Shown here piece after piece: positions 12,107 to 46,701 of a stretch of DNA of 64,000 nucleotides (positions are counted from its first letter, which is position 1; each line of letters begins with the position of its first letter). The stretch covers positions 806,001-870,000 of the forward strand of contig NZ_CP038636.1 in NCBI RefSeq assembly GCF_004768545.1. The letters are read 5' to 3'. The position numbers and the translations under genes are program-made. The notes beneath the pieces were generated by a model, which made no database searches, was not told the origin of the DNA, and saw only the letters and a list, made by a program, of their open reading frames with translations. The DNA comes from Cupriavidus oxalaticus. Its GTDB lineage: Bacteria; Pseudomonadota; Gammaproteobacteria; Burkholderiales; Burkholderiaceae.

Positions 12107-12754
12107 TCAGTGCCGCGGCTTCTGCTGCCCGTGCCGCCAGACCACGGCTTCGAGACGGGAGTGAAGATTGAGCTTGGACAGCACGTGCTTGACGTGCACC
12201 TTGACGGTTCCAACGCTGATGCCGAGCTGGCGGGCGATGGTCTTGTTGCACAGGCCTTCCGCCAGGAAGTCCAGCACCTCGGACTCGCGGCTGGTCAGGT
12301 CAGCCTGGGCGGCGGGCACGCGCTGGTTGGACGCGACCACCTCCATCAGGCTGCCGGTCACGGAATCGCTCAGCACCGAGGCGCCATTCGCCGCGCGCCG
12401 CAGGCAGTCGCACAGGTCTTCCGGCTCCATGTCCTTGAGCAGGTAGCCATGCGCTCCGGCGCGCAGCGCGGAAACCACGTCGCGTTCGTTATCCGATACC
12501 GTCAGCATGATGAAGCGGGAGTCGACGTGCTTCTCGCGCAAGGCGCCGATGGTCTCGATGCCGCTCATGCCCGGCATGTTCAGGTCGATGAGGATGACAT
12601 CCGGCTGCATGCGCACTGCCATGTCCACGCCCTCCGCGCCGGAGGAGGCCTGGCCGACGACACGGAAGTCCTGGTCCATGCCGATGAGTTGCGCGAGACC
12701 CTTGCGGAACAAGGCGTGATCGTCGATGACCAGAACCGTGTTGCTCGTTTCCAT
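12107..12754 (-). CDS. NarL/FixJ-type response regulator
   Basis: A 215-residue regulator. The receiver domain has the acidic pair VIDDHALFRKG, phospho-acceptor Asp57 in DLNMPG and Lys in LLKDMEPEDL; a LuxR-type HTH follows (LTSRESEVLDFLAEGLCNKTIARQLGISVGTVKVHVKHVL, written here only as landmarks of residues 150-190). I choose ATG 12754 for its GGAGAC site; the frame is open further upstream but without domain content. It lies 193 bp downstream of the sensor kinase gene on the same strand and is its likely partner. Its targets may include the transporter-decarboxylase operon downstream. Confidence 0.9.
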   Translation of the reverse strand: METSNTVLVIDDHALFRKGLAQLIGMDQDFRVVGQASSGAEGVDMAVRMQPDVILIDLNMPGMSGIETIGALREKHVDSRFIMLTVSDNERDVVSALRAGAHGYLLKDMEPEDLCDCLRRAANGASVLSDSVTGSLMEVVASNQRVPAAQADLTSRESEVLDFLAEGLCNKTIARQLGISVGTVKVHVKHVLSKLNLHSRLEAVVWRHGQQKPRH

Positions 12755-12947
12755 GGCCGTTGTCTCCGTATTTTTTGCAGCCACGCTGCCGGTTCCTGAT
12801 CCGGCCTGATACTTCTGCGGGACGCATTGCCGCCTGTATCGGCGGTTGTTTGCGAGAGCAACGGAAATACTACCGGCATCCCCGGTTTTGGGGAAGGCGT
12901 CAGCGCATGCCAGCGCGACTGGGGTTTTCCCGATTGTGCGCTGACGC

Positions 12948-14573
12948 TCACCACTCAGGCTGCCGCACCGGACGGAATTGGACCGAAACGCAGGAGCCGC
13001 CGCCCGGCCTGGGACTGATCGACAACGCACCGTCCAGGCTCAATGCGCGCTCGCGCATGATGGCAGTGCCGTGCTGGTTGCGCGGATCCGCGGCCGGCTC
13101 GAAGCCCAGTCCATCGTCCTCGATGACGATGGCGATCGCGCCATTCTCCTCCGGCAGCAGCCTGACGGTGGCCTGCGATGCACCCGCGTGGCGCACGACA
13201 TTGGAGAGGGCCTCGCGCACGATCTGCACGATATGGAACTCTTCGTTGGCACTGAGCTGGCAGCCCTTGAGCCGGTTGTCCAGCGTCATGGCCACGCTGC
13301 TGCGCGCGCCATACTCATCAAGGGCCTCCTCCAGCGCCGCGGCCAGGCCCTGTACATTGATCTGCGTGCGGAACGTCGTGATCAGTTCGCGCAGCTTGCG
13401 ATAGGCGCCGTTCAGGCCGTCGCGCAGTTCTTCCGCGGTCGCCTCCAGGCCCTCGCGCGCGTCCCCTCGGTCGGCCAGGGTCTGCAGGCGGCTGACCTGG
13501 ATCTTCATGTAGGACAGCGACTGCGCCAGCGAGTCGTGCAGTTCGCGCGCCATGGCCGTGCGCTCCTCGATCAGCGCTACCCGGCGCCCTTCCTGCATGC
13601 GCCGGAAGTTGCCGATCGCCAGGGACAGGTGACGCCCGATCGCCTCGCCGATCTGGCTGCCTTGCGCCTGGCAGTCCTGCGCCGTCCGGAACAGCACGAA
13701 GAGATGCCCGTAGCGCTCCTTGCCGTCGCTGATCGGCACCGCGAGCCCGACCTCGGCGTGCCCGCCCTGCTCCGCCAGCTCGAACACCATGTGCGGGCCC
13801 GCCACCGTGAGCGCGCGCACACGCTCCACCTGCGCCCACCCCAGCTCCCCGGCGTGCACGACTTCCGGCAGTTCGAGCGCCTCGCTGGTCTCGTCGTCCA
13901 GGCAGATGCAGCAGGCGCGCGCCTGGAGCCCGCCGGCCACCGCCTCGCACACATTGCGCAAGGCCTGCGCCCCCAGCGACTCGCCGGACAGCGCTGTCAT
14001 CACCTGCTCGAGCAGGCTGAGCCAGCGGTCCTTGCGCTCCGCGGGAATGTCGCCTGCCGGCGCGCGCGCCTCACGCGCCTGGCGGCGCATCCCCAGGCCG
14101 ATCAGCACGCCACCGGCGGCCACGATCAGCAAGGCAATGCGGACCGCAATATCCACCCGCAAGTGGCGCTGCAAGGCCTCGGATACATCGACGGCCGCCT
14201 GCTCAAGCACCGGCATGGCTGCCGACACCGTACCGTAGGCATGGGCCTGCCCTTCGTCCGCCAGCCCCGCGCCGAATGGCGGGTCGGACAGCAGCCGGCG
14301 CGTTTCCGCCAGCCATTGGCGCCCCTCCCGTCCGGCTTCGTTGCGCTGGTCGAAGCCGCTGCCGCGCTGGCGCAATTCGGCCGCCTTGCTCAGGAAGCTC
14401 ACCGCCTCGCTGGACCAGGCCGCGGTCAGGATGGGTTGCACCATCAGCGCCAGCGCCGCCAGCGCCGCCACGGTGATCACCACGGCCCAGGCCCGCACCG
14501 CGCGCTGTTGCCGGGCAAGGAAAAGCAAGTATGATTGCGGGGCGCGTCTGCCGGGTACGGAATTGAGATTCAT
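12948..14573 (-). CDS. NarX-like sensor histidine kinase
   Basis: A 541-residue membrane kinase. The first membrane helix is near residues 28-50 and the second near 148-166, enclosing a periplasmic region of about 100 residues with a NarX-like helical character. A GAF-like cytoplasmic region follows (about 195-320, with a CCICLDDE segment). The dimerisation domain is HisKA_3 type (ERTAMARELHDSLAQSL, His near 343), followed by an ATPase domain with EALSNVVRHAG and EDDGLGF. I choose the MNLNS start at 14573 (AAGGTGA upstream). The signal sensed is unknown; the two Cys in the GAF region could bind a cofactor. Confidence 0.9.
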   Translation of the reverse strand: MNLNSVPGRRAPQSYLLFLARQQRAVRAWAVVITVAALAALALMVQPILTAAWSSEAVSFLSKAAELRQRGSGFDQRNEAGREGRQWLAETRRLLSDPPFGAGLADEGQAHAYGTVSAAMPVLEQAAVDVSEALQRHLRVDIAVRIALLIVAAGGVLIGLGMRRQAREARAPAGDIPAERKDRWLSLLEQVMTALSGESLGAQALRNVCEAVAGGLQARACCICLDDETSEALELPEVVHAGELGWAQVERVRALTVAGPHMVFELAEQGGHAEVGLAVPISDGKERYGHLFVLFRTAQDCQAQGSQIGEAIGRHLSLAIGNFRRMQEGRRVALIEERTAMARELHDSLAQSLSYMKIQVSRLQTLADRGDAREGLEATAEELRDGLNGAYRKLRELITTFRTQINVQGLAAALEEALDEYGARSSVAMTLDNRLKGCQLSANEEFHIVQIVREALSNVVRHAGASQATVRLLPEENGAIAIVIEDDGLGFEPAADPRNQHGTAIMRERALSLDGALSISPRPGGGSCVSVQFRPVRQPEW

Positions 14574-14737: not shown

Positions 14738-16999
14738 ATGCTGACCGTGTGGCTGTACCTGACCGGCGCAGCCGCTGCGTGCGGCTATGCCATCGGCGCC
14801 ACCATGGGCTGGCTGCCGTCCAGTACACCGCTTGCCGTGGCGTGCCTCGGCGGCGCGCTCGGCCTGGTGGTAGCGGCCGCGGCCACCAACCGGCGCGCGC
14901 CGGGCCGGCCTGCCGCCGCCGCGGTGCCGCGCCCCGGCGTTGGCCCGATCCCGCCCCTTCACGACTACCGTGCGCTGATCGACGGTCTCGAGGACATCGT
15001 CTTCGAGACCGACGCCGAGGCTGCCTTTGATTTCCTGAATCATGCCTGGAAGTCCATCACCATGCTGGATGTGCACGTCAGCTTGCACACGCCGCTGTTC
15101 CGCTACGTCCACCCGGACGAGCAGGCGCTCAACCGCGAGCAGTTTCTCACGATCCTCTCGCAGCATGGCGATGCCTGCCGCTACGAGACCCGCCTGATCC
15201 GCCATGACGGGCAGCAGCGCTGGGTGGAAGTCAGGCTGCGGCCACGCTTCGACGGGCACGGCCAGGTGAGCGGCACCACCGGCATGATGACCGACATCCA
15301 TTCCCGCAAACGCGCCGAAGACGTGCTGCGCGCACGCGACCGCAGCCTGTCGACCCTGCTGGACCATCTCCCGGGTATGGCCTTCCGCTGCCGCAACGAC
15401 CGCCGCTGGACCATGGAGTTCGTCAGCGATGGCTGCTTCGAACTGACCGGCCTGGAAGCGGTCGACCTGCTCAACCACCCGTCCTACGACGAACTGATCC
15501 ATCCTGAAGACCGCGCCTATGTCTGGGATTACGTGCAGAGCCAGCTCGAGCAGCGCAAGGCCTTCCACCTGCGCTACCGCATCCGCACGCGCGCCGGCCA
15601 GGAGAAATGGGTCGACGAGCGCAGCCGCGGGATCTACGCGGGCAACGGCACCCTGCTGGCGATCGAGGGCTTTATCTCCGACATCAGCAGCCAGAAGCGC
15701 GACGAGGAACGTGCCGAGCGGGAGCCGCTGCGCGACCGGCTCACCGGCCTGAAGAGCCGTGCCCTGCTGCTCGATCGCGTCGATCTTGCGCTGCAGTACG
15801 GCGCGACCTTCATGCTGCTGTGCCTGGACGTCGACAATCTCAAGCGGATCAACGAGCGGCACGGCCGCGCGTTTGGCGACCAGCTGCTGAGCCGGCTCGG
15901 GGAGCGGCTCGCGGCGTGGTGCGGGCCAGGCATCTCCGCCGGCCGCAGCGGCGGCGATGAGTTCGCCATTCTCGCGCTGGAAGCGCCAACCCGTGGCGAC
16001 GCGGCCGCCTGCGCCGAAGCCCCCGCCGGCTGCGCACCGGCAGACCGCCAGCTCGGTGGCGTCATCGCCGCGCTGACCCTGGTGGACACCATTGCCGGCA
16101 TGCTGGACACGCCCTTCGACCTCGACGGCACCTCGATTTCCATCAGCGCCAGGCTGGGCATTGCATTCAGCACCGAGGCCGGCACCGACGCCCGCGCCAT
16201 GCTGCGCGACGCGCTGCACGCCGTGTATTCGGCCCGCTGGCAGACCGCAAGCGGCACCGTGCGCTACGCCTTCGCCGGCGAGTCCGCCAGGCATGTCGCG
16301 CAAGCCTGGCGACGCTCGGCCAGTGAATTTGCGCGTGCCTGCGACACGCTGCGCCTGCAGGTCAGCCTGGCCCAGGTCAGGCCGCTCGGCGACAAGCCGG
16401 GCTGGGCCGAAGGCACGGCCTGCTGGCACAGCCCACGCGCCGGCCTGATTCCTGCCGAGCACATGTTCCTGCATGCGTGCCGCGCCGGCACGCTGCAGGC
16501 CGTGGTCGAGCGCTATCTGCTCGCCATCTTCGCAGAGGCCCGTCTTCATCTGAAGCCGCAGCAGCGCCTGTGCCTGTGCATCGATGTCGTACCGCTCGAT
16601 GCGGCCATACTGCAAGGGATACACGGCGCCTTGCTTGCCATCGCGGGCCAGCCCGGCGCCACCCGGGTCGACCTGCTCCTGCCGCAACAGGTCGACCCGG
16701 GACTGGCCGATCTCGAAGCCACGCTGGCCGGCCTGCGCAGCCGTGGCGTGCGTGTCGGCGTGGACCTTACCCCGGCCGCCAGTCGCGACGGCGAGCCCTT
16801 TCCCACGTGGGCCTTGCTCGCCGACTTCTGGCGCATCGGGGTCGACCAGGCCGCCATGGCACGGATCCGGCTCGAACGCCTGCTGCGGATTGCGGCACTG
16901 CACGACATCCCCGTGGTGGCCGCCGGCGATGCCGGCGCCTTTGGCAGCCGCCTCATCCACCGGGTTGGCGTGGCCGAGCCGATCGCGCCGGCCGCCTAG
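14738..16999 (+). CDS. Membrane PAS-PAS-GGDEF protein with degenerate EAL domain
   Basis: A 753-residue protein with two N-terminal membrane helices (residues 5-22 and 32-50), two PAS/PAC units (about 75-190 and 205-320; PAC ends MMTDIHSRKR and FISDISSQKR), a GGDEF domain (about 335-490) with an intact SGGDEF motif near 404, and a C-terminal region (about 520-753) that aligns in order with EAL phosphodiesterases. The EAL catalytic residues are not recognisable: the EXLXR start and the DDFGTGYSSL loop are replaced (VGVDLTPAASR). It is predicted to make c-di-GMP under PAS control, with the EAL region in a sensory role. It diverges from the kinase gene. Confidence 0.85.
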   Translation: MLTVWLYLTGAAAACGYAIGATMGWLPSSTPLAVACLGGALGLVVAAAATNRRAPGRPAAAAVPRPGVGPIPPLHDYRALIDGLEDIVFETDAEAAFDFLNHAWKSITMLDVHVSLHTPLFRYVHPDEQALNREQFLTILSQHGDACRYETRLIRHDGQQRWVEVRLRPRFDGHGQVSGTTGMMTDIHSRKRAEDVLRARDRSLSTLLDHLPGMAFRCRNDRRWTMEFVSDGCFELTGLEAVDLLNHPSYDELIHPEDRAYVWDYVQSQLEQRKAFHLRYRIRTRAGQEKWVDERSRGIYAGNGTLLAIEGFISDISSQKRDEERAEREPLRDRLTGLKSRALLLDRVDLALQYGATFMLLCLDVDNLKRINERHGRAFGDQLLSRLGERLAAWCGPGISAGRSGGDEFAILALEAPTRGDAAACAEAPAGCAPADRQLGGVIAALTLVDTIAGMLDTPFDLDGTSISISARLGIAFSTEAGTDARAMLRDALHAVYSARWQTASGTVRYAFAGESARHVAQAWRRSASEFARACDTLRLQVSLAQVRPLGDKPGWAEGTACWHSPRAGLIPAEHMFLHACRAGTLQAVVERYLLAIFAEARLHLKPQQRLCLCIDVVPLDAAILQGIHGALLAIAGQPGATRVDLLLPQQVDPGLADLEATLAGLRSRGVRVGVDLTPAASRDGEPFPTWALLADFWRIGVDQAAMARIRLERLLRIAALHDIPVVAAGDAGAFGSRLIHRVGVAEPIAPAA

Positions 17000-17032: not shown

Positions 17033-17830
17033 TCAGAACACGCGTTTCAGGCCGAGTATCCAGTGCGCGGTGCCCAGCCGCTTGCCGTCGGCCACCCACA
17101 GGCTGCGATCGGCATTCGTCCCCGTGTAGGCCAACGAGACGGTCCAGCCGGTGCCGAAGCTCTTGCTGACCACGGCGCGCCAGTCCGTATAGTTGAAGGC
17201 GCCGTAGTTGCGCACCCATTGCCGGCCCACATGCAGCCCCAGCACGAAGTCTTCCGGCAGCGGGACATCGGCGTTGAGCTCCAGGTAGCCGCTGCCATGC
17301 GAGCTGCCCTGGTTGGTCCCCATCGATGCGCTGTTGAAGCCGAAGAAGTCGGTCAGCGTGCTGGAGTATTTCAGGGTCACAAACTTCCAGCCGACCGCGC
17401 CGTACAGTTCCAGCGTGTTGTATTTCTCGTCCGAGCCCGGCAGCTTGGGGTTTTCCGGATAGTAGAACTGCAGCAGCCCGACATCAAAGCGCCAGTCGCC
17501 GAAGGACTTGGTAAAGCCGCCGTACAGGTCCATCTCAAGGCTGGCGCCGTTGATCGCCTTGCTGCTGACGTTGGTCGCCCAGACGCCAGCGTAGAGACCG
17601 CTATCGTGCGCGTAGTCGAAGCCGCCCTGCAAGGCAGGCCGGTCCTGCGTGTAGGTGATGCCGCGAAAGACGTAGTTGCTCATCAGCGCGACATTGGCGC
17701 TGAAGGTATGGGGGCTGGCGGGCGGCTTCGGCTCCTCCTGCGCGAAGACGCCTGGGGCCGCGCCTGCACCGCAGGCCAGCAAGCAACCCGAGGCGAAGGC
17801 CCTGGACCAGGATTGCGAGGACAGTTTCAT
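17033..17830 (-). CDS. TorF-family putative outer-membrane porin
   Basis: A 265-residue protein with a Sec signal peptide (MKLSSQSWSRAF, hydrophobic core ending ACGAGAAPGVFAQ, cut near residue 30). The mature part is rich in amphipathic beta strands (NVALMSNYVFRGITYTQDRPALQGGFDYAHDSGLYAGVWATN) like TorF/TIGR02001 proteins, and ends in an aromatic residue (RVF) as outer-membrane barrels do. It lies downstream of etfA on the same strand but is separated by 228 bp containing a GC-rich palindrome, so it may be independent of the trimethylamine operon. It converges with the GGDEF gene 33 bp away. Confidence 0.82.
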   Translation of the reverse strand: MKLSSQSWSRAFASGCLLACGAGAAPGVFAQEEPKPPASPHTFSANVALMSNYVFRGITYTQDRPALQGGFDYAHDSGLYAGVWATNVSSKAINGASLEMDLYGGFTKSFGDWRFDVGLLQFYYPENPKLPGSDEKYNTLELYGAVGWKFVTLKYSSTLTDFFGFNSASMGTNQGSSHGSGYLELNADVPLPEDFVLGLHVGRQWVRNYGAFNYTDWRAVVSKSFGTGWTVSLAYTGTNADRSLWVADGKRLGTAHWILGLKRVF

Positions 17831-18058: not shown

Positions 18059-19021
18059 TCAGAAATGGTTGCGCAGCTCCTTGCCGATATCGAAGATGTC
18101 GCCCACGATGCCGTACTTCGCAATCGTGAATATGGAAGCCTCGGGGTCGGTGTTGACGGCGATGATGGTGTCCACATGCTTCATGCCGGCCATGTGCTGG
18201 ACCGAACCCGAGATGCCCATCGCCACGTACAGCTTGCAGTTGGCGGCGGTCTTGCCCGACTGCCCCACCTGCCGCGACTTCGGCAGCCACCCCGAATCGG
18301 CGATCGGCCGCGAGCAGCCCAGCGTGGCGCCCACCGAATCCGACAGCTCCTTGAACTGCTCGACGTTGTCTTCCTCGCCCACGCCGCGTCCGATCGAGAG
18401 GATGAAGTCCGCGCCCGGGATGTCCACATCGTCGCCGCCGGCCGGCTCTTCGAAGGCCAGGTGCTGGCTGCGCGGCGCGACCTGCGGTGCCGCCTGGCTG
18501 GACACCGCCGGTGTCCCGGCCGCTTCCACGGGCTTGAACGAGCCCGGCCGTACCGTCAGCACCACGGTGGCGCGATCGGGGAACTCCATCTCGACGTTCA
18601 CCTTCTGGCCGTATCCGGAACGCGTGGCCACCCAGCCATCGCCATCGCGCTCGACCTTGAACACGTCGGTGGTAAAGCCATGGCCATCACGCACCGCCAG
18701 CGGCGCCGCATAGCCCAGCGTATCCACGCTATGCGGCAGCAAGACCAGCGACGGCTTGCCGGCAGCAATCAGCGCGCGCACCGACGCTTCATATACTTCC
18801 GGATCGAAGGCATCGTCCGCGCTTTGCACCGTCACGATCTCATCCACGCCCGCCAGTTTCAGCGCCTCGGCGTAGCGCCCCGGATCGGCGCCGATCACCG
18901 CCACCCGCACCGGCTGGCCGCTTGCCGCCTTCAGGCTGACGGCCAGGCCGACCAGTTCGCGGCTGACCGGACGCAGCTCGCCCTTGCGATGCTCACCTAC
19001 CACCAGAATGCCCGTCATCAT
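18059..19021 (-). CDS. etfA: Electron transfer flavoprotein alpha subunit
   Basis: A 320-residue FixB/EtfA protein. The C-terminal FAD domain has the diagnostic SRPIADSGWLPKSRQVGQSGKT block (about residues 225-246), GISGSVQHMAGM and INTDPEAS-type VNTDPEASIF. The middle segment ILSIGRGVGEEDN precedes it. With EtfB it accepts electrons from flavin dehydrogenases; here the likely donor is trimethylamine dehydrogenase from the same operon, whose known acceptor in Methylophilus is an ETF. Its start overlaps the end of etfB by 4 bp. Confidence 0.93.
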   Translation of the reverse strand: MMTGILVVGEHRKGELRPVSRELVGLAVSLKAASGQPVRVAVIGADPGRYAEALKLAGVDEIVTVQSADDAFDPEVYEASVRALIAAGKPSLVLLPHSVDTLGYAAPLAVRDGHGFTTDVFKVERDGDGWVATRSGYGQKVNVEMEFPDRATVVLTVRPGSFKPVEAAGTPAVSSQAAPQVAPRSQHLAFEEPAGGDDVDIPGADFILSIGRGVGEEDNVEQFKELSDSVGATLGCSRPIADSGWLPKSRQVGQSGKTAANCKLYVAMGISGSVQHMAGMKHVDTIIAVNTDPEASIFTIAKYGIVGDIFDIGKELRNHF

Positions 19022-19818
19022 GCTTCTCCCCTGTATTCCTTGATGATCTTTGCCAGTTGCGACGCCTGCTCGGCCGGGGTGCCCCCGATCATTTGCGCGC
19101 GGCCCTTCTCCGGCACGTACATGCGCCGCACCCGCGACAGGGAGCCCGCCGCACCAGCCTCGCCGGCGGCAAGGCCGATGTCTTCCGGCGACACCACTTC
19201 AATCGGCCGCGAGGCCGCCTGCTTGATGCCGCGCAAGGAGGCATAGCGCGGCGTGTTGATGCCGAGCTGCAGCGTGAGCACGGCGGGCGTGTCGATCTTC
19301 ACCGCGGCATAGGTGCCGCCTTCGAGCTCGCGCCGCACCGTTGCCTTGCCATCACCCGGGGTGTATTCCAGCGTCGCAACGACCGCCGCATGGGGCGCAT
19401 CCAGCAGCCCGGCGAGCGCCATGCCGGTCGCGCCGAATGCGTGGTCGGAAGCCTGCACGCCGGCAAACACCAGGTCGGCGGACTCGCGGCGTGCCAGCGC
19501 GGCCAGCACCCGCGCCACGGCGATGGGGTCGGATTCCTCCAGCGCATCGTCCCAGACGCGGATGGCGCGGTCGGCGCCCTTGGCCAGGCACTTGCGCAAC
19601 TCTTCGTCCGCGCTGTCCGGGCCCACCGTGGCCACGATCACCTCGATGCCCTCGCCGCCCGGCCCCTCCTTGAGGCGCATGGCCTCCTCCAGGGTGTAGT
19701 GGTCCCACTCGTTCAGGTCGTGCACCAGGAAGTCGGGATCGATGTCGCGGCCGTCGTCGCGAATCTCGAAGTCCTCGTCCAGCGTGGCCACCTGCTTGAT
19801 CGTCACCAGTATCTTCAT
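19018..19818 (-). CDS. etfB: Electron transfer flavoprotein beta subunit
   Basis: A 266-residue EtfB/FixA protein beginning MKILVTIKQVATLDEDFEI. It has the NEWDHYTLEEAMRLKE segment, FAGVQASDHAFGATG and the AMP-site region DTPAVLTLQLGINTPRYASLRGI. The frame is open upstream, but ATG 19818 overlaps the stop of the preceding repeat protein gene (ATGA), which marks the start. It pairs with EtfA downstream. Confidence 0.93.
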   Translation of the reverse strand: MKILVTIKQVATLDEDFEIRDDGRDIDPDFLVHDLNEWDHYTLEEAMRLKEGPGGEGIEVIVATVGPDSADEELRKCLAKGADRAIRVWDDALEESDPIAVARVLAALARRESADLVFAGVQASDHAFGATGMALAGLLDAPHAAVVATLEYTPGDGKATVRRELEGGTYAAVKIDTPAVLTLQLGINTPRYASLRGIKQAASRPIEVVSPEDIGLAAGEAGAAGSLSRVRRMYVPEKGRAQMIGGTPAEQASQLAKIIKEYRGEA

Positions 19819-21284
19819 ATCGTCTCCATCGTCTGCGCTGCTTGTTGTATGGCTCGCGGCATGGCCTGGCGCCGCGCCGGCGCCGCGCGCATGCCCGCCA
19901 GCCGGGCGAAATGGCCGAAGATGCGGAAGCGGACTTGCGCGTCGGGGTCGCCGCGCATGCGCCAACGGTCCGCGTCCGTCAGGTTGGGATGCTCGATCAC
20001 CATGGCGCGGTGCAAGGCGTAGCCGTCGTGACGCAGCACCAGCAGCACGCCACGCGGCGCCTTCCGGTTGAGGATCACGGCGCGGCGGACATCGGCGCTC
20101 GGGTGGGCCGCCAGCGTCGCCAGCCGCGCGGGCGAGGTGCCGGGATGACGTGCCACGCCCGCCAGTACGTCGACGTCCGTGCAGCGTGCAAGGCGGCGCA
20201 GCAGCGGCAACGGCAGGTCATCGCGGTAGGCCACGCCGGCCCGTACCCAGGCGACGGGATCCGCGCCCAGCCGCTCCAGCAGTCCCGCAGGACAGCCCGG
20301 GTGCCGCGCCGCGCAGCGCCGCACCTCTGGCTCTGGATCCGCTGCGGCCAGCACCAGCCAGTCCACCGGGCAGCCGGGGTTGCGTGCCACCGTGCGGCGC
20401 ACCCAGGGGTCGGTGTCCTCCAGCAGCCAGCCCGCCATGCGCGCCGCCAGGTCCTTGCGCCCCGCCACCGCGCGGCGCACACCGGCATCGCCGTCGAAGC
20501 AGCATGCCAGCAAGGCATCGGCGGGTATGGCCGGGTGCGCCGCTGCCGCACGACGTACGGCGGGATCGGCATCTGCCGCGAGCTGGCGCAGAAGCGTCCC
20601 CGGGGCCCGCGCCTGCTGCGCCAGGCAGCGCCGCTCCAGCGCCGATGCCGGCAATGCCTGCAGCAGGCTGTCCGGGCAATGCGGATGCAACAGGATCTGG
20701 GCTCGCACCGCTACGCCGTTGCCCTCGTCCCCCTCGTCCCCCTGGCCTGCATCGCGCCACAAAGCCTGCAAGGTGGCCTCGCCGGTGGCCGGGTTGATGG
20801 CCAGCAGCCGCTGCAGGACCGGCAAGTGCCGCTGCTGCAGCGCGGCCAGCACGTCCGCGGCGACGCCCGCGTTCTCGCACAGCGCGCACAGGATCTCCTC
20901 CTGCGCCGTGTCGTCGGCGATCTGCGCCAGCACCGCACGCGGCATATGCGCGTGCCGCGCCAGCAGCAGTCGCATGCGTTCGCTGCGCGCCCGCGGCCAG
21001 AGCGCAGCCAGGCAATCCGCTGGCGCGGCGGGATTGCGCGCGAGCCGCTGCCCGACCATGGCATCGTCGCGCGCTTCCGCACCCAGCCGCGCCAGCACGG
21101 GCGGCGCCACGAAGGCCGCAGATGCCAGCAGCAGCCGGTCGCGGCGCGCCTCGAACAGGCGCGGCGCCAGCCACTGCCGGTGCACCGCCGAGGCGTAGGG
21201 ATAGAGCGCGGCCGCGGGGTACGGCTCCGCGTCTTCCCGCGCGCGCCGCAGCAGCTCCATCCAGTGCCGACCGGTGAATTTCAT
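19815..21284 (-). CDS. Leucine-rich-variant/HEAT-like repeat protein
   Basis: A 489-residue soluble protein with no signal peptide or membrane helix. Residues 235-455 hold about nine units of a 22-25-residue repeat with the pattern D-x-x-V-R-R-x-V-A-x-x-P-x-x-P-x-x-x-L-x-x-L, for example DPAVRRAAAAHPAIP and DPWVRRTVARNPGCP; more degenerate units go back to about residue 60. This is typical of LRV or HEAT-like solenoids. I see no four-cysteine cluster of the LRV iron-sulfur type. It sits between the DgcB-like gene (11 bp) and etfB (4 bp overlap), so it probably serves ETF or Fe-S protein assembly or complex formation. Its function is unknown. Confidence 0.82.
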   Translation of the reverse strand: MKFTGRHWMELLRRAREDAEPYPAAALYPYASAVHRQWLAPRLFEARRDRLLLASAAFVAPPVLARLGAEARDDAMVGQRLARNPAAPADCLAALWPRARSERMRLLLARHAHMPRAVLAQIADDTAQEEILCALCENAGVAADVLAALQQRHLPVLQRLLAINPATGEATLQALWRDAGQGDEGDEGNGVAVRAQILLHPHCPDSLLQALPASALERRCLAQQARAPGTLLRQLAADADPAVRRAAAAHPAIPADALLACCFDGDAGVRRAVAGRKDLAARMAGWLLEDTDPWVRRTVARNPGCPVDWLVLAAADPEPEVRRCAARHPGCPAGLLERLGADPVAWVRAGVAYRDDLPLPLLRRLARCTDVDVLAGVARHPGTSPARLATLAAHPSADVRRAVILNRKAPRGVLLVLRHDGYALHRAMVIEHPNLTDADRWRMRGDPDAQVRFRIFGHFARLAGMRAAPARRQAMPRAIQQAAQTMETI

Positions 21285-21295
21285 CGCCGCGCGCC

Positions 21296-23506
21296 TCAGG
21301 CTTCCACCAGGCCGCCCTGCGGGCTGGCGGACCCGCCAGCACGCAGGGCGGCTGCACCGGCACCTGCACCGGCAACCTCGGCTTCCAGCGTGATGGGCTC
21401 GGCCAGCGCGTCGCGGATCATCTCGATCAGTTCTCGCACCACGAACTTGCCCTCATAGCCGCTGGTCTTGAGCGCGTCCTCGAACATGGTCAGGTCTTTG
21501 GGGCAGCAAACCACGAAGACTTCCAGCCCGTCGATGCCCGCCGCCTCACGCATGCGCAGCTGGGACGGCTTCTCGGCGCCGACCGGATCCGGCATCCAGA
21601 TGCGCCCGCCGCCGGCGCCGCAACAGAAGGAGTTGTCGCCATGGCGCGGCATCTCCACCAGTTCGCAGCCGATGCGCTTCAGGATTTCGCGCGGGCCGCC
21701 GTAGCCCTTGTTGAAACGGCCCAGGTGGCAGGGATCGTGCAGGGTCACGCGCAAATGCTGCGGCTGGCGCACCTTGAGCTGGCCCTGCTCCAGCATGCGC
21801 TGCACGAAGCTGGTGTAGTGCTCGATCTCATAGTTGCCGCCGAAGTCCGGATACTCGTTGCGGATGGTGTTGTAGGAATGCGGGTCCGTGGTCACGATGC
21901 GCTGGAACTGCACGGTGCCCAGCGTGGCGATATTGGTTTCGGCCAGCAGTTCGTAGAGCCCTTCCTCGCCCACGCGGCGCACGTCGTTGCCGGCATTCGA
22001 TTCCCCTTCGAACAGCAGGCCGAAATTGACGCCGGCCTCGTGCAGCAGGGTGGCGAAGGCCTGGCTGACCTTCTGGTTGCGCGGATCGAACGAGGCGTAG
22101 TCGCCCACGAACCACAGCACGTCCACCGGCTCCTTGCGCGCATCCTTGATCTGGAACGGCAGCGCCTTGGTCCAGGCCGCGCGCTTGCGCTTGGATTCCC
22201 CGAAGGAATTGCCAGTCTTGTGGATGGTCTGCAAGGTCTTCTGCAGCTGCGGCTCCATCTCGCCCTCTTCCACCAGCTTGCGGCGCATCTGCACGATGAT
22301 GGGTACATGCTCCACCGCCACCGGGCAGATCTCCACGCAGGCCATGCAGGTGCGGCACGACCACAGGGTCTCCATGAACACCTGGCCGCCATCCTTGCCG
22401 TGCGGGCTCAGCTTGACCTGCTCCGGCAAGGTGTTCTTCTGCAGGGCATCGTTGGCGAACTCGCGCAGCGAGAGGATCACGTCGCGCGGCGACAGCGGCG
22501 CCCCTGCGGCGCGCGCCGGGCAGGCTTCATGGCAGCGGCCGCACTTGGTGCAGGCATCGAGGTTGAGCAGATGCTTCCAGGTAAAGTCGGTGATGGTCGT
22601 ATAGCCCACCTTGTCGCCGGTGGCGGCCTGGCGCGGCAGGCGCTGCGCGGCCAGCGGATCGCGCAACATCAGCGAGCCGGCCGCGGTGAAGATGTGCTTG
22701 ACCTTCGTGAAGGGAATCAGCGCGATCAGGGTCAGCGCCAGCAAACCGTGGAACCACCACAGGCCGGTGCGCAGCAGCCCCGCCGCGGCGGCGCTCAGCC
22801 CGGCAGCGCGCAGGCCTTCGGCCAGCGCCGCGCCGAACGGCGACCACCACCGCAGCTCCCATACCTCCGGCCGCTGCTGCAGCCAGACCAGGCGGGCGGC
22901 CTCCAGCACGTAGCCGGTCGCGCCGATGACGATCAGTGTCCACAGGAAGGCCCAGTCCTCGCGGCGGTAGCCGCTGCGGTCGTAGCCGGGCTCGCCGGGC
23001 TTGCGGTCGGGGCGCGTGTAGTCCAGCTTGGGCGGCTTGATCCAGCCGCGCCGGACCATCATGTAGACGAGACCGCCGATCATGGCCACGCCGGCGCAAT
23101 CCAGTACCAGCGAGAACCACAGATAGAAATTCCCGTGCCAGAAGCTGATGCCGAACAGCTTGGCCGTGATGTCGTAGTCGAGCGTAATGGTTGCGGTGCC
23201 GATGAAGAGCAGCGCGAAACCATAGAAGATAAGCCGGTGCGCGCGCCCGGCGGCGGGATCGCGCCTGGCGATAGTGCGATGGCTCGCTACCGTGCGGCAC
23301 ATCTGCAGGAAGCGCTTGAACAGATCGAGCGGCGCGCCCAGGGGCTGGCCACGCCGGTACTTGCGCACCTGCACATAGGTGCCCCAGCAGAACACGCCGA
23401 TGGCGCCGAAGCCCACCAGGTAGAACAGCACGATGGCGTGGGACGAGAATCCTTCAAACAGGACCCGGGTGATCTGGAGCGGGTCGAACTTGTCTGCGGC
23501 GAACAT
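21296..23506 (-). CDS. DgcB-like membrane iron-sulfur oxidoreductase
   Basis: A 736-residue protein related to DgcB and HdrD/GlpC-type proteins. The N-terminal part (about residues 20-300) has five to six membrane helices with His residues, like NarI-type cytochrome subunits. Two 4Fe-4S motifs follow, CTKCGRCHEACP and CRTCMACVEICP, then a C-terminal CCG-type domain (HDPCHLGR, FCCGAGGGRIWM, VVCCPKDL). In Pseudomonas, DgcB takes part in dimethylglycine oxidation. Here it lies between tmd and etfBA, so it probably passes ETF electrons to quinone in place of the usual ETF-quinone oxidoreductase. I place the start at 23506 (MFAADKFDPLQ); upstream codons look non-coding. Confidence 0.87.
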   Translation of the reverse strand: MFAADKFDPLQITRVLFEGFSSHAIVLFYLVGFGAIGVFCWGTYVQVRKYRRGQPLGAPLDLFKRFLQMCRTVASHRTIARRDPAAGRAHRLIFYGFALLFIGTATITLDYDITAKLFGISFWHGNFYLWFSLVLDCAGVAMIGGLVYMMVRRGWIKPPKLDYTRPDRKPGEPGYDRSGYRREDWAFLWTLIVIGATGYVLEAARLVWLQQRPEVWELRWWSPFGAALAEGLRAAGLSAAAAGLLRTGLWWFHGLLALTLIALIPFTKVKHIFTAAGSLMLRDPLAAQRLPRQAATGDKVGYTTITDFTWKHLLNLDACTKCGRCHEACPARAAGAPLSPRDVILSLREFANDALQKNTLPEQVKLSPHGKDGGQVFMETLWSCRTCMACVEICPVAVEHVPIIVQMRRKLVEEGEMEPQLQKTLQTIHKTGNSFGESKRKRAAWTKALPFQIKDARKEPVDVLWFVGDYASFDPRNQKVSQAFATLLHEAGVNFGLLFEGESNAGNDVRRVGEEGLYELLAETNIATLGTVQFQRIVTTDPHSYNTIRNEYPDFGGNYEIEHYTSFVQRMLEQGQLKVRQPQHLRVTLHDPCHLGRFNKGYGGPREILKRIGCELVEMPRHGDNSFCCGAGGGRIWMPDPVGAEKPSQLRMREAAGIDGLEVFVVCCPKDLTMFEDALKTSGYEGKFVVRELIEMIRDALAEPITLEAEVAGAGAGAAALRAGGSASPQGGLVEA

Positions 23507-23610
23507 GGCGGCTTCCGTCTGGGTCGATGCGTGGAGGAGCGGCGGGGCGCGGCGGGGCGCGGCGCGACGAGGAGGGCCAGGCACAGCCTGCCTGGCCCTC
23601 CCCCCGCGGA

Positions 23611-26965
<3,355 letters not shown>

Positions 26966-26981
26966 CGCGCTTCCTCGCCTC

Positions 26982-27944
26982 CTAGATGGCCAGCACCACG
27001 CGCTGGCAGCGCGCCCGCGAGACGCAGGGCATGAGCTTGCGTCCGCCCGCCCGTTCCTCGGCGGAGAGATAGTGATCGCGATGCAGCAGTTCGCCGTCGG
27101 TCTCCAGCACCTCGAGTTCGCACTGCCCGCAGGCACCGCCGCGGCACAGGTAAGGCGCCCTGACGCCGGCCGCCTCGATGGCTTCCAGCAGGCTGACCTC
27201 GCTGCCGACCTGCACGGTGATGCCGCTGCGCGCCAGCACCGCCTCGAACGGGACGCCGGGCTGCGGCGCGAGAAACTGCTCCCAATGCACGTGGCCGTCC
27301 GACCACCCCGCCGCGCGCGCCGCCTGGCGCACGGCGTCGATCATGCCGGCCGGCCCGCACACGTAGACATCGGTGCCGAGCGGCTGCCCCGCCAGCACCG
27401 TGGCGAAGTCGAGCTGATTGCCGCCCTCGTCCACGTAGAGATGCAGCTTGCTGCCGGCGATCCGCTGCAGCGCGACGGCGAAGCCGGCATGTTCCTGGCT
27501 GCGCACGGCGTAGTGCAGCTCGTAGGCCGCATCGAGCCGCTCCAGCTCCGCCAGGTGCGAAAAGAATGGCGTGATGCCGATGCCGCCCGCGATCAGGATG
27601 TGCTTGCGCCGGGTCTTGAGCAGCGGAAAGAGATTGACCGGCGCGGACACGCGCAGCACCGAGCCGACCGTGACCCGTTCATGCATGTGGCGCGAGCCGC
27701 CGCGCCCTTCGTCCACGCGGCGCACACCGATCTGGTAGTGGTCACCGTCCCAGGGCGAACTCATCAGCGAGTACGGATTGCGGTGCAGCCGGTCGTGGCC
27801 TTGCATCTCCACCACGATATGGCTGCCGCCGGAGAAGCGCGGCAGCGCGCCGCCGTCGGCATGCTGCAGGGTGAAGCGCTTGATCAGCGGCGTCACCGGC
27901 TCGATCTCTGCCACGCGCACCGGAATGGATTCCTGCGGTTTCAT
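26982..27944 (-). CDS. PDR/VanB-family flavin and 2Fe-2S reductase (dimethylamine monooxygenase component)
   Basis: A 320-residue oxidoreductase: an N-terminal flavin-binding barrel with RNPYSLMSSPWDGD (residues 55-68), an NAD-binding domain with ILIAGGIGITPFFSHL and VYVCGPAGMIDAV, and a C-terminal plant-type 2Fe-2S domain with CRGGACGQCELEVLE and a distal Cys in LMPCVSRA. It would pass NAD(P)H electrons to the heme subunit encoded next. Its start overlaps the stop of the preceding small gene by 4 bp. The order matches the dmm dimethylamine monooxygenase set. Confidence 0.88.
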   Translation of the reverse strand: MKPQESIPVRVAEIEPVTPLIKRFTLQHADGGALPRFSGGSHIVVEMQGHDRLHRNPYSLMSSPWDGDHYQIGVRRVDEGRGGSRHMHERVTVGSVLRVSAPVNLFPLLKTRRKHILIAGGIGITPFFSHLAELERLDAAYELHYAVRSQEHAGFAVALQRIAGSKLHLYVDEGGNQLDFATVLAGQPLGTDVYVCGPAGMIDAVRQAARAAGWSDGHVHWEQFLAPQPGVPFEAVLARSGITVQVGSEVSLLEAIEAAGVRAPYLCRGGACGQCELEVLETDGELLHRDHYLSAEERAGGRKLMPCVSRARCQRVVLAI

Positions 27945-28522
27945 GCTGCCCCCGGGGTTTCCGCGTCGGCCATCACACCCATGAAGGCGGCGAGCCGGCG
28001 CGAATAGTGATCCCGCACCAGCAGCGTGCGGCCACAGCCCGCGCAAGGCGCCAGGCTGCCGCTCACCGCCGCGTTGCAGGTGTGGCAATGGATGCAGTAC
28101 ACACGGCGCGCCGCGGCCGGGGCCACGTGCTCGCATTGCATCTCGTCGGGATCGAGCCCATGCTGCTCGGCGCTCCGGCTCGCCTGGGCAAGGAAGTCCT
28201 CGTCGCCGGCGGCGTAGAAGCGCAGCCCCATCGGCTGGCGCGCCAGGGCCTGCGCCAGCGCCGCGAGCAATGCGTTCCCGGATGCGGCGATGGTGGCGCC
28301 GGGCCACGCCGCGCGCACGCCTTCGGCAAGGTCGGCGCTGGCCGCGGGGGCGTACAGCAGCTCGCATGCCGACGCCGCGGAGCCCGCCCGGCTGGCCTGC
28401 GCGGCCAGGCGCAGCAGGGCCTCTGCGCCCGCCCCGCACGCCACCGCCAGGTGCGTGTGCCCGCTGCGGTCGAACTGCAGTGCGCGGTACACCGGCATGC
28501 TCTTGATCCCTGTCACCAGCAT
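27941..28522 (-). CDS. Small cysteine-rich subunit, DmmA-family-like
   Basis: A 193-residue protein. Residues 1-140 are an Ala-rich alpha/beta region reminiscent of a ferredoxin-reductase nucleotide-binding half (LRFYAAGDEDFLAQASR), and the C-terminus (about 140-175) has a Cys/His cluster CIHCHTCNAAVSGSLAPCAGCGRTLLVRDHYSRR in which Cys pairs could bind zinc or an Fe-S centre. Genes of this kind accompany dimethylamine monooxygenase genes. It lies between the GcvT-like gene (26 bp) and the reductase (4 bp overlap). The start MLVTGIKS at 28522 has an AGGAG site upstream. Confidence 0.78.
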   Translation of the reverse strand: MLVTGIKSMPVYRALQFDRSGHTHLAVACGAGAEALLRLAAQASRAGSAASACELLYAPAASADLAEGVRAAWPGATIAASGNALLAALAQALARQPMGLRFYAAGDEDFLAQASRSAEQHGLDPDEMQCEHVAPAAARRVYCIHCHTCNAAVSGSLAPCAGCGRTLLVRDHYSRRLAAFMGVMADAETPGAA

Positions 28523-28548
28523 GGCAAGCTCCTTTGCCCCGGGGCCGT

Positions 28549-29664
28549 TCAGGCCGCCTTGATCTGCGTGCGCAGGCGCTGCGGATCGTAGAACGGCGTC
28601 TTGGTCACGGTGGCCACATGTGCGCCCGTGCTGTCGCGGATCTCGACCCTGGTGCCCAGTGCCTTGTACGCCGGCTTCAGGTGCACCAGCGCCAGCGACT
28701 GCATCAGGTAGCGGCTGAAGGTGGCGCTGGTGACGACGCCCGCTTCCTTGCCGTCGACGAAGATCCTGGCCCCGGCCTCGACCGCGCGATCGAGCCGCAC
28801 CGCCACGCCGGCCTGGGAAAAGCGCTCCTTGCCCCGGGCCGCCAGCAGCGCTGCCTTGCCCACGTAGTCGCCGGCCTTGTCGGAGTCGATGGCCCAGCCG
28901 AGGTTGACCTCCCACGGCGTGGTGTCGCCCTCGGGCATGTCGAAGGGGTAGAACAGCAGCGCCGCCTCGATCCGCGCCAGTTCCAGCGAATCCCAGGAGC
29001 ACGGAATCAGCCCGTGCGGCTTGCCCGCTTCGAGGATGGCGTCCCAAAGCGCCACGGCATCCGCCGCTGCGCAGGAGATCTCGAAACCCTCCTCGCCCGA
29101 GTAGCCGCCGCGGGAAATCACGATCTTGCGGCCGAACAGCGTGGTTTCGCGGTGGGCGAAGTAAGGCAGCGTGGCCAGGTCGATGCCGATATGCGCCTTC
29201 AGGATCGCAGCCGAGCGCGGCCCTTGCAGCGAGAGCATATGGACGTCGAAGTCCTGCTCCCACTGCATGTCGCGGCCTTGCGAGAGCGCGGCCAGCTTCT
29301 GCTGCGTGTCACCGCTGCCGTGCGACAGGCGGTACTGGTTCTCGCCGTCGCAGATCACCATCAGGTCGTCGCTGACGGCGCCCTTCTCGTCGACCACCGC
29401 TGCCAGGCGCGCCGTGCCCGGGCGCAGCCGGCGCACGTCGATCGGGACCATCCTGTCGATCACCGCGGCGGCGTCCGGCCCCCACACCCTGACAATGTTC
29501 AGGCCGCTGATGTCATAGAGGCCTGCCGCAGTGCGCACCGCCACCACTTCGTCCTGCGGATCGCGCTGGTAACGCCAGGGAATCGGCATGTCGTTCCAGG
29601 TGTCGCCGTCCAGCTTCGAGCCAAGCTCGCGGTGTCGTACGTTCAGGATGGACTCTCGGGTCAT
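28549..29664 (-). CDS. GcvT-like folate-dependent C1 transferase
   Basis: A 371-residue aminomethyltransferase-fold protein with the VRTAAGLYDISGLNIVRVWGPDA N-terminus, GYSGEEGFEI motif, and KPYFIGR-like VGKAALLA segment of GcvT. In dmmDABC clusters a GcvT-like partner is proposed to place the one-carbon unit released from DMA on tetrahydrofolate as methylene-THF. I choose ATG 29664, preceded by CGGAGAC; MRRQP at 29679 is an alternative. It is first in the operon, which runs on to etfA about 11.6 kb away. It gives folate-linked assimilation a supply separate from the methanopterin route. Confidence 0.85.
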   Translation of the reverse strand: MTRESILNVRHRELGSKLDGDTWNDMPIPWRYQRDPQDEVVAVRTAAGLYDISGLNIVRVWGPDAAAVIDRMVPIDVRRLRPGTARLAAVVDEKGAVSDDLMVICDGENQYRLSHGSGDTQQKLAALSQGRDMQWEQDFDVHMLSLQGPRSAAILKAHIGIDLATLPYFAHRETTLFGRKIVISRGGYSGEEGFEISCAAADAVALWDAILEAGKPHGLIPCSWDSLELARIEAALLFYPFDMPEGDTTPWEVNLGWAIDSDKAGDYVGKAALLAARGKERFSQAGVAVRLDRAVEAGARIFVDGKEAGVVTSATFSRYLMQSLALVHLKPAYKALGTRVEIRDSTGAHVATVTKTPFYDPQRLRTQIKAA

Positions 29665-29706
29665 CGGTTGTCTCCGCATGGGTTCGGTGTGTCTGGCGGA
29701 GTATGG

Positions 29707-29878: not shown

Positions 29879-32068
<2,190 letters not shown>

Positions 32069-32086: not shown

Positions 32087-33124
32087 ATGCACAAGATTGC
32101 CACCTCACCGCATCGCAGCCAGCCCGCCGGCGCCATCGGCATCCGCGCCAACGGCCGGCTGCACCTGGGCTTTCTCGACCCCGGCGCCACGCTGGGCCGG
32201 CGCTTCGGCAGCCTCGGCCTCGCGATCGAGGGGCCGGCCACCGTCCTGGACCTGGCGCCCGCAGCGCAGGACCGGATCACCGCGCTCCACCCTGCCGCGC
32301 AAGCGGAACTGCCGCGCGTGAGCGCCTGGCTGGAGCGGCTGCGGCAGGCCAGCGGCATGCGCCGGCCGCTTGCGCTGCGGCTGCACGAGGTGCTGCCCGC
32401 GCATGCCGGCTTCGGCTCCGGCACCCAGCTCGCACTGGCCCTTGGCCGGGCCTATGCCGAGTGCCACGCGTTGCCGTGGTCCGGCGCGGAGATTGCCCGC
32501 ATCCTGGAGCGCGGCGGCCGCTCCGGCGTGGGCATCGCGGCGTTCGAGCATGGCGGCCTGCTGCTGGACGGTGGACCGCGCGGCGCGGGCACCGTGCCGC
32601 CGCTGACGGCGCGCTTCGGGTTCCCGTCCGACTGGCGCATCGTGCTGCTGCTGGACGACAGTCGCACCGGCCTGCACGGCGCAGCGGAGAAGGAGGCCAT
32701 CCAGGCCCTGCCGCCCTTCCCCAGGCCGCTGGCCGCGGAGCTCTGCCACCGCGTGCTGATGCAGATCCTGCCGGCGGCCGCCGAGCAGGAGTTCGCCCCG
32801 TTCGCGCAGGGCCTGAACCAGTTGCAGCAAGTCATCGGCAACTACTTCGCGCCAGCCCAGGGCGGGGTCTACAGCAGCCCGGCGGTTGCGCGCGTGCTGG
32901 ACTGGGTCACGCGGCAGGCCGGCAGCGATGCGGTTGCGGTGGGCCAGAGTTCGTGGGGGCCGACCGGCTTTGCCATCGTGCCGTCGCAGGCGGCCGCCGA
33001 GCAAGCCGTGGCCGGCGCGCGCGCGGCGGGCCTGTTGCCGGGCTGCCTGGAGGCGCGCATCGTGCGCGGCGCCAACCATGGCGCCGGCAGCGTGCTGCCG
33101 GCGCAGCATCGCAGCGCGGCCTGA
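32087..33124 (+). CDS. Beta-ribofuranosylaminobenzene 5'-phosphate synthase-like (GHMP family)
   Basis: A 345-residue GHMP-superfamily protein. The GHMP ATP-like motif region is HAGFGSGTQLALALG (about residues 106-120), preceded by RLHLGFLDPGATLGRRFGS, and a C-terminal GQSSWGPTGFAIV segment matches motif 3. The family member MptG condenses 4-hydroxybenzoate or pABA with PRPP as the first committed step joining the arylamine to ribose in methanopterin synthesis. It starts 18 bp after the activator stop and heads the H4MPT cluster. Three tandem decamers follow it. Confidence 0.87.
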   Translation: MHKIATSPHRSQPAGAIGIRANGRLHLGFLDPGATLGRRFGSLGLAIEGPATVLDLAPAAQDRITALHPAAQAELPRVSAWLERLRQASGMRRPLALRLHEVLPAHAGFGSGTQLALALGRAYAECHALPWSGAEIARILERGGRSGVGIAAFEHGGLLLDGGPRGAGTVPPLTARFGFPSDWRIVLLLDDSRTGLHGAAEKEAIQALPPFPRPLAAELCHRVLMQILPAAAEQEFAPFAQGLNQLQQVIGNYFAPAQGGVYSSPAVARVLDWVTRQAGSDAVAVGQSSWGPTGFAIVPSQAAAEQAVAGARAAGLLPGCLEARIVRGANHGAGSVLPAQHRSAA

Positions 33125-33155
33125 AGCAACCAGAAGCAACCAGAAGCAACCAGAA
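33125..33155 (+). repeat. Short tandem decamer repeat
   Basis: Three near-perfect copies of AAGCAACCAG lie in a row between the RFAP synthase-like gene and mtdB, starting just after the stop codon, with a fourth partly matching copy (AAACGAACTG). The gap is only 81 bp; no promoter is obvious. Confidence 0.85.
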
Positions 33156-33205
33156 ACGAACTGAAGCGGCCAGGCCGCACCGAACCCTATCCGAGCGAGA
33201 TCCCC

Positions 33206-35317: not shown

Positions 35318-36388
<1,071 letters not shown>

Positions 36389-36389
36389 G

Positions 36390-38350: not shown

Positions 38351-38385
38351 TCCATGTAGTTGACGGTAGTCACCGGTGGTCCCAG

Positions 38386-38416
38386 TACCCGCGCCGGCAC
38401 CGCTGCGGCGCGGGTA
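38386..38416. terminator. Bidirectional hairpin between convergent genes
   Basis: TACCCGCGCCG (38386-38396) and CGGCGCGGGTA (38406-38416) form a perfect 11-bp stem with a 9-nt loop, placed between the ends of the CitG-like and FolB-like genes. Position and stability suggest a shared terminator, though no clear T-tract follows. Confidence 0.72.
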
Positions 38417-38431
38417 GCCGCCCCGGATGCC

Positions 38432-38962: not shown

Positions 38963-39229
38963 CAGGCCTCCCTGCCGTGCAATGGCTGCGCGGCCGGCGG
39001 CCGCTCCCACGACCTCTCACGCAAATAGCAGGCCACGCGCAGCCGGCAGCGCCGCGGTGACCCGCAGTGCCAGCCATGCCGCCCGCGCGCGGGCACCCGC
39101 TGTAGCGCGCCTGCGCATCTGCGCACCGCGGCCACGTCACAGACTGTCCCGGCCGCGGGACAGTCGCGCCGGCGCAATGACCCGCGCAGGCCCCGAAAGG
39201 CCGTCGCATCAAGGCCGGCCGCACCAGGC

Positions 39230-41307: not shown

Positions 41308-41320
41308 CGGACATCACAGC

Positions 41321-42603: not shown

Positions 42604-42664
42604 GCGTTTGCGGCCTCGCCCAGGGGCATTGGTCCCCGTGAACCAACACCGGAGAACGACAACC

Positions 42665-45897: not shown

Positions 45898-45906
45898 TCC
45901 GTCTCC

Positions 45907-46689: not shown

Positions 46690-46701
46690 GCGGTACCGCC
46701 C

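Follow-up and report, generated by a model that had tools for sequence, protein, structure and literature searches.

We analyzed a window of 64,000 nucleotides from Cupriavidus oxalaticus (contig NZ_CP038636.1, positions 806,001 to 870,000 of the forward strand), in which nine close-packed minus-strand genes (18059-29679) very probably encode a two-step route of trimethylamine (TMA) demethylation. Trimethylamine dehydrogenase (TMADH, encoded by tmd) would convert TMA to dimethylamine (DMA), and the DMA monooxygenase DmmABC would convert DMA to monomethylamine (MMA). The identity and integrity of the enzymes, the layout of the operon, and its recurrence in other genomes are directly supported by sequence; we infer from these that C. 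oxalaticus uses the two substrates. The pairing of the two enzymes was confirmed as real but recurs widely. What is added here is a set of counts, a likely separate assembly of the operon, a possible link between a GcvT-like protein and TMADH, and a missing MMA step.

The nine genes are, in order, gcvT-like, dmmA, dmmB, dmmC, tmd, a membrane Fe-S protein gene, a leucine-rich repeat variant (LRV) protein gene, etfB, and etfA (Table 1). Spacing between them ranges from -4 to +118 bases: there are three 4-base overlaps and three gaps of 11 to 26 bases, and the widest two gaps (104 and 118 bases) flank tmd. An earlier note on this DNA had placed tmd, the dmm set, electron transfer flavoprotein (ETF) genes, and a membrane Fe-S protein in one packed minus-strand operon; all genes that it named were found in place, full-length, and on the minus strand. 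Its list was correct in its members and omitted only the LRV gene between the Fe-S protein gene and etfB. The gcvT start that it gave (29664) is possible, but 29679 may be the true start.

Enzymes of the two demethylation steps

TMADH yields DMA, formaldehyde, and electrons that pass to ETF. The window protein aligned with TMADH of Methylophilus methylotrophus (PDB 1djn) over 728 of 728 residues with 1431 bits, and has the full FMN/4Fe-4S/second nucleotide-binding architecture. Every flavin, Fe-S, and substrate-pocket position checked is conserved: Cys30 (flavin link), the four Fe-S cysteines 345/348/351/364, and Tyr169, His172, Trp264, Asp267, Trp355, and Tyr442. In PDB numbering, 87 TMADH-like rows (the window protein and rows at least 70% identical) were compared with 9 rows of a 65% clade, all from the loci described below. 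Positions 60, 74, and 105 were Tyr, Ser, and Trp in 87/87 TMADH-like rows, including the window protein, and Gln, Thr, and Phe in 9/9 rows of the 65% clade. We take this clade to be DMA dehydrogenase (Dmd), in part because of the genome paper of Methylobacillus sp. MM3, which lists both dmd and tmd (PMC6256518). By these residues the window protein falls outside Dmd, and the three positions may serve to tell TMADH from DMA-dehydrogenase-type paralogues. Histamine dehydrogenase (6de6) matched the window flavoprotein with 537 bits, against 1431 for TMADH. Assignment of the flavoprotein as a histamine or DMA dehydrogenase was rejected on these residues and scores.

The window genome contains a single full-length TMADH-family gene. 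No DMA dehydrogenase paralogue was found elsewhere in it; the next-best TMADH match covered residues 8-230 at 36% identity. Oxidation of TMA to DMA, with the product of the adjoining ETF genes as acceptor, is the predicted reaction of this enzyme.

The second step is assigned to the three dmm products. The sole match of the DUF3445 protein DmmC among solved structures (E up to 1) was PDB 5lte, a haem-dependent oxidative N-demethylase (504 bits), with which it aligns over almost its entire length; dmmC is also the one PF11927 match in the window genome. Both DmmA-like Pfam domains occur in DmmA, and domains for 2Fe-2S, NAD, and FAD binding occur in DmmB. The PF11927 haem subunit, the DmmA-like subunit, and the NAD(P)/2Fe-2S reductase subunit of the DmmABC/HODM family are thus all present, in the same order as in DmmDABC of Ruegeria, Paracoccus, and Methylocella (PMC5520151, PMC4543880). 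Activity of dmmABC on DMA has been demonstrated in Ruegeria pomeroyi (PMC5520151) and Paracoccus aminophilus (PMC4543880); dmmABC by itself turns DMA into MMA in Escherichia coli (PMC5520151), and P. aminophilus dmm mutants do not grow on DMA (PMC4543880). In R. pomeroyi and P. aminophilus the DMA comes from Tmm and Tdm (PMC5520151, PMC4543880), whereas in the window TMADH would supply it. NAD(P)H- and O2-dependent demethylation of DMA to MMA is the predicted role of DmmABC. The order of reactions proposed in the earlier note, TMADH followed by a dmm-type oxygenase, is well supported by the matches to 1djn and 5lte and by the presence of all three Dmm subunits.

The membrane Fe-S protein combines a TfrB-like Fe-S stretch with a QmoC-like membrane stretch, both below curated cut-offs. 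Its membrane domain, 4Fe-4S domain, and CCG domain, encoded beside the ETF genes, are those of a membrane-type ETF:quinone oxidoreductase, and it is likely the ETF:quinone link. A homologue was present in 56/57 of the long TMADH loci defined below, as was EtfB (56/57). The LRV protein was present in 45/57, in most cases encoded after the Fe-S protein and before etfB; no 4Fe-4S motif was apparent on reading its sequence.

In the proposed scheme, TMADH would produce DMA and formaldehyde and pass electrons to the co-encoded ETF, and these would reach quinone probably via the membrane Fe-S protein. DmmABC would then produce MMA and a further formaldehyde, spending NAD(P)H and O2. The formaldehyde could be captured on folate by the GcvT protein, enter the tetrahydromethanopterin (H4MPT) oxidation pathway encoded downstream, or both. 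The first step would proceed without O2 and yield electrons, whereas the second would need O2 and cost reductant, so DMA should accumulate when O2 is short. Pairing with a DMA monooxygenase thus alters how much O2 and NAD(P)H the use of TMA is predicted to cost, and predicts release of DMA at low O2.

Occurrence of the pairing and assembly of the operon

In the usual picture, DMA dehydrogenase is the partner of TMADH, and DMA monooxygenase that of Tmm/Tdm. When genome contigs were scanned with a TMADH alignment of 12 rows, 323 relatives were confirmed, of which the best 80, ranked by likeness to the window TMADH, were analyzed; in 57 of the 80 loci, 9 kb or more of sequence lay on each side of tmd ("long" loci). 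Whole genomes were searched for 49 other TMADH bearers, from 50 loci chosen among the 80 in a way that favoured longer contigs. The fractions below describe this sample rather than all TMADH bearers, and several of its rows (Paraburkholderia, Methylotenera, Methylophaga) are closely related.

DmmC or DmmB was encoded within 36/57 long loci, and a second TMADH-family gene (60-70% identical) within 7/57. A full DmmC (at least 59% identity) was found in 40 of the 49 genomes, weak fragments only in 3, and none in 6. The 65-67% TMADH paralogue, interpreted as DMA dehydrogenase, occurred in 10/49; up to 22 candidates were scored per genome for this count, fewer than a first look had found in some large genomes. 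Taken together, 32 genomes had DmmC without Dmd, 8 had both, 2 had Dmd without a full DmmC, and 7 had neither. DmmC lay on the tmd contig, at most 15 kb from tmd, in 33 of the 40 DmmC-bearing genomes; one of these (L124, genome G015; 14.8 kb) is within this count yet was treated as unlinked in the DmmC tree. In the genomes examined, DMA monooxygenase occurs together with TMADH more often than a DMA-dehydrogenase-type paralogue does, and this includes a strain of the species that provided the model TMADH. Loci with TMADH and DmmC or DmmB span Methylophilaceae, Methylophaga, Zoogloea, Paraburkholderia, and others, and the tmd-dmm linkage recurs in at least three layouts.

The strain in question, M. 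methylotrophus DSM 46235, has DmmC near tmd and a single TMADH-family gene found at E 1e-150. Its TMADH has the same cofactor and substrate-pocket residues as the window protein, and Fe-S protein, LRV, and ETF genes adjoin tmd. Its 22 kb locus differs in having the dmm genes downstream of etfA, with no GcvT found, whereas in the window dmmABC is flanked by gcvT and tmd. Methylobacillus sp. MM3 also has DmmC, ~10.5 kb from tmd. The earlier note had suggested a search for tmd beside dmm-like genes; carried out on TMADH loci, it found the pairing both in Paraburkholderia and outside Burkholderiales. The counts above run counter to the idea that the mixed design is peculiar to Burkholderiales, and DSM 46235 to the idea that Methylophilus pairs TMADH with DMA dehydrogenase. 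Description of the route as little described may be fair: searches joining "trimethylamine dehydrogenase" with "dimethylamine monooxygenase", with "dmmABC", or with Methylophaga plus dimethylamine met no paper on the pairing, most subscription journals being outside the search, so that older M. methylotrophus biochemistry could be missed. A Methylophilus comparison uses one label, "dmd-tmd" (PMC8399692); such a lumped label can mask which enzyme carries out the DMA step.

L022 (genome G013, contig C59) and L051 (genome G032, contig C111) have DmmC fragments of 48 and 35 residues near tmd, and no full DmmC was found in either; these are perhaps remnants of lost dmm genes. The L051 fragment is weak (E 1.5e-4), and its genome also has a Dmd-type paralogue. 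Near tmd, Zoogloea dura has two DmmC genes separated by ~9 kb, which share 67% and 61% identity with the window DmmC. In L043 (tmd copy from ~12239) and L070 (tmd from ~10001), the TMADH-like protein has His172 replaced by Asp and Asp267 by Asn; the two form one starred pair in the TMADH tree, and each genome has a second TMADH on the same contig. An altered substrate of these proteins is possible.

A close counterpart of the operon was found in Cupriavidus basilensis GW210010_S58, whose dmmA-dmmB-dmmC-tmd-FeS-LRV-etfB-etfA is collinear with the window (TMADH 96% and DmmC 87% identical). It differs in that no GcvT was found on its 9.7 kb contig, where the gene may have been cut off by the contig end. 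In a TMADH tree built by a quick method, the window and C. basilensis proteins were sister to that of Azoarcus sp. KH32C (95), followed by Paraburkholderia and Caballeronia (98). Plasmid pAZKH of Azoarcus KH32C (NC_020548.1) has gcvT-tmd-FeS-LRV-etfB-etfA-torF, which is the window arrangement minus dmmABC, and shares the window flank: a PAS protein on the other strand, a sensor kinase, NarL, and a DMT transporter. No dmmABC was found in the 30 kb seen.

A DmmC tree was built with nine near-duplicate Paraburkholderia rows and matches shorter than 280 residues left out. The window and C. basilensis proteins formed a pair apart from Paraburkholderia and Zoogloea DmmC; the label "tmd-linked" required 6 changes on this tree, 4 of them forced by starred branches, and the deep forks were weak. 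The dmm genes are divergent in Paraburkholderia and lie downstream of etfA in Methylophilus, Methylotenera, and Methylophaga. Because the window DmmC stands apart from its Paraburkholderia counterpart despite 88-90% identity of their TMADH, separate assembly is suggested. The most economical explanation is that the Cupriavidus line gained dmmABC by an insertion between gcvT and tmd, independently of the assembly in Paraburkholderia and in Methylophilus/Methylotenera/Methylophaga.

GcvT-like protein and alternative explanations

The window GcvT has GCV_T and GCV_T_C domains and thus the folate-binding domain of DmmD. In R. pomeroyi, the GcvT-type DmmD has been proposed to load formaldehyde onto folate (PMC5520151). 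The earlier note had assigned the GcvT partner to the DMA step. In a tree of 38 chosen rows, which did not include Ruegeria DmmD, the window GcvT was sister to the tmd-linked GcvT of Azoarcus KH32C (99/97), and the two were joined by those of Paraburkholderia and Caballeronia (100/100). The window clade comprised 22 rows (100/99). DmmD of the Rhizobium etli, Paracoccus alcaliphilus, and Cupriavidus metallidurans dmm operons formed a separate clade, so the window GcvT does not group with these canonical DmmD proteins. Because its sister belongs to an Azoarcus tmd operon without dmm genes, the window GcvT may be a member of the TMADH module; its assignment to the DMA step was not supported, although the case is not closed.

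The alternative that the window GcvT is an ordinary DmmD, and that dmmABC and gcvT travelled together, appears unlikely but deserves serious weight. The order gcvT-dmmA-dmmB-dmmC is that of dmmDABC in R. etli and P. alcaliphilus. Two dmm regions, one of 12.7 kb in Aquabacterium olei and one of 4 kb in Hyphomicrobium zavarzinii, hold a window-clade GcvT and no TMADH match, which argues against a strict link to tmd. Because of these two proteins, and because Ruegeria DmmD lies outside the tree, a DmmD-like role retains some probability. Several observations favour membership in the TMADH module instead: the Azoarcus GcvT gene directly precedes tmd in a 30 kb stretch where dmm genes were not found; the Paraburkholderia gcvT shares its strand with tmd, opposite to the dmm genes; a GcvT at least 48% identical to that of the window was present in 5/57 long loci having neither DmmC nor DmmB; and the DmmD proteins named above stand in their own clade.

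It is improbable that TMADH and DmmABC serve separate purposes, with DmmABC acting on external DMA (e.g., from N,N-dimethyl compounds) and sharing only a transcript with TMADH. The dmm genes often occur without tmd (148 plasmid records had a DmmC match, against 6 with a TMADH match of at least 60%), no TMADH match was found at E 1e-5 in six dmm plasmid regions examined, and the tmd linkage was gained or lost repeatedly in the DmmC tree. However, DMA is the TMADH product, the genome has no DMA dehydrogenase paralogue that was found, and the linkage is seen repeatedly, in several layouts. Least probable is that the TMADH homologue has a different amine as its main substrate (DMA, histamine, or dimethylglycine), making the operon something other than a TMA pathway: the family does include histamine dehydrogenases and the 65-67% DMA-dehydrogenase-type paralogues, but the residues at positions 60, 74, and 105 and the bit scores described above separate the window protein from both.

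Rhizobium (95) and Acinetobacter (20) accounted for many of the plasmid records with DmmC homologues. Plasmid p1 of C. metallidurans BS1, typed as conjugative, has dmmA-dmmB-dmmC-gcvT beside GlnT and MgsC-type genes, with no TMADH match in the region seen.

For the two-step route itself, the fate of MMA was searched in the window genome, which is rated 100% complete in 7 contigs. The best GmaS match had 193.6 bits against a cut-off of 469.6, with none at 1e-90; the best match to an MgsC-type protein was only 34%; and searches for a MauB family protein, a copper amine oxidase, and a quinohaemoprotein amine dehydrogenase gave none, with MgsA/B, Mgd, Tmm, Tdm, and formaldehyde-activating enzyme outside the searches. 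As controls among other TMADH genomes, GmaS was found at 1e-90 in 18/20 (17 over the cut-off), PF06433 in 12/20 (above 500 bits in only 3 of these), MgsC at no less than 71% in 3/5, copper amine oxidase in 1/5, and PF09098 in 2/12. GmaS, an MgsC-type protein, copper amine oxidase, and PF09098 were also not found in C. basilensis; its PF06433 match scored 157 bits, against 572 for M. methylotrophus, which makes absence less clear there. MMA is either released or handled by an enzyme outside those searched for.

The following points weigh against the proposed route. None of the five MMA routes sought was found in the window genome (MgsA/B and Mgd outside the search), which is odd for complete TMA catabolism. 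The probable quinone step is based on domain content below curated cut-offs. Finally, the 3352-base tmd-dmmC DNA was present at full length in only 2 of 60 genomes of the genus (C. oxalaticus itself and one other, at 89% identity), other hits among the matches listed being short (~40 to 200 bases); tmd-dmmC is an accessory trait because so few genomes have it.

A more speculative extension, which we consider doubtful, is that TMADH in this lineage has a dedicated formaldehyde-capturing folate GcvT partner and that the Cupriavidus form demethylates TMA only in part. It would deliver two C1 units to the adjacent H4MPT pathway, and MMA would be released to other organisms or passed to an undescribed MMA enzyme. 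The route would stop at DMA without O2, so nitrate-respiring lineages would keep DMA dehydrogenase instead or as well. The Hyphomicrobium dmm region, which has a window-clade GcvT without a TMADH match, counts slightly against this extension.

Flanking genes

Table 1. Genes of the putative TMA operon and its surroundings (window positions)
Feature	Position	Strand	Basis and remarks
gcvT-like, aminomethyltransferase folate-binding protein, 376 aa	28549..29679	-	PF01571 + PF08669; alternative start 29664
dmmA, small Cys-rich DMA monooxygenase subunit, 193 aa	27941..28522	-	PF22290 + PF22289, DmmA-like N and C domains
dmmB, NAD(P)/flavin/2Fe-2S reductase, PDR/VanB type, 320 aa	26982..27944	-	PF00970, PF00175, PF00111
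dmmC (DUF3445/HODM alpha), haem-dependent oxidative N-demethylase, 347 aa	25922..26965	-	PF11927; PDB 5lte
tmd, TMADH, 730 aa	23611..25803	-	PDB 1djn; PF00724, PF22620, PF07992; Y60/S74/W105
Membrane Fe-S protein, 736 aa, probable ETF:quinone oxidoreductase	21296..23506	-	PF02754, PF13237; QmoC-like membrane part + 4Fe-4S + CCG domain
LRV protein, 489 aa	19815..21284	-	PF01816
etfB, ETF beta subunit	19018..19818	-	PF01012
etfA, ETF alpha subunit	18059..19021	-	PF01012 + PF00766
TorF-family putative porin, possibly linked with operon	17033..17830	-	PF09694/TIGR02001; 228 bases after etfA; also follows etfA in Azoarcus KH32C
PAS-GGDEF signalling protein	14738..16999	+	PF08447, PF00990; also beside the module in Azoarcus KH32C (57%)
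NarX/NarL-like sensor kinase (12948-14573) and response regulator (~12107-13030, start unsure)	12107..14573	-	C-terminal part of NarQ/NarX models, below cut-off; same order in Azoarcus KH32C
Sigma-54-dependent activator with GAF domain, divergent, candidate regulator	29879..32068	+	PF00158, PF01590, PF02954
H4MPT C1-oxidation/cofactor cluster	32087-51853		RFAP synthase, MtdB-type, Mch, MptN-like ligase, CitG-like, FolB, dihydropteroate-synthase-like, FhcB-like, FhcA, FTR, GXGXG protein
Phosphoribulokinase-family gene	52739-53617		

A sigma-54 promoter upstream of gcvT was considered and set aside: 51 matches with at most 2 mismatches occurred in the window, against a mean of 39.7 in shuffled sequences (3/100 shuffles reached 51), and none lay in the gap between gcvT and the regulator, so the matches are not evidence. 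Homologues of the sigma-54 activator (56-59% identical) were found in the Paraburkholderia and Caballeronia tmd loci, L015 excepted.

The H4MPT cluster adjoins the operon downstream. Formylmethanofuran dehydrogenase B, the MptN-like ligase (as MptN), and the dihydropteroate-synthase-like protein were below curated cut-offs; the RFAP synthase family, Mch, and formylmethanofuran dehydrogenase A reached them, and the MtdB-type domain and FTR were recognised by Pfam.

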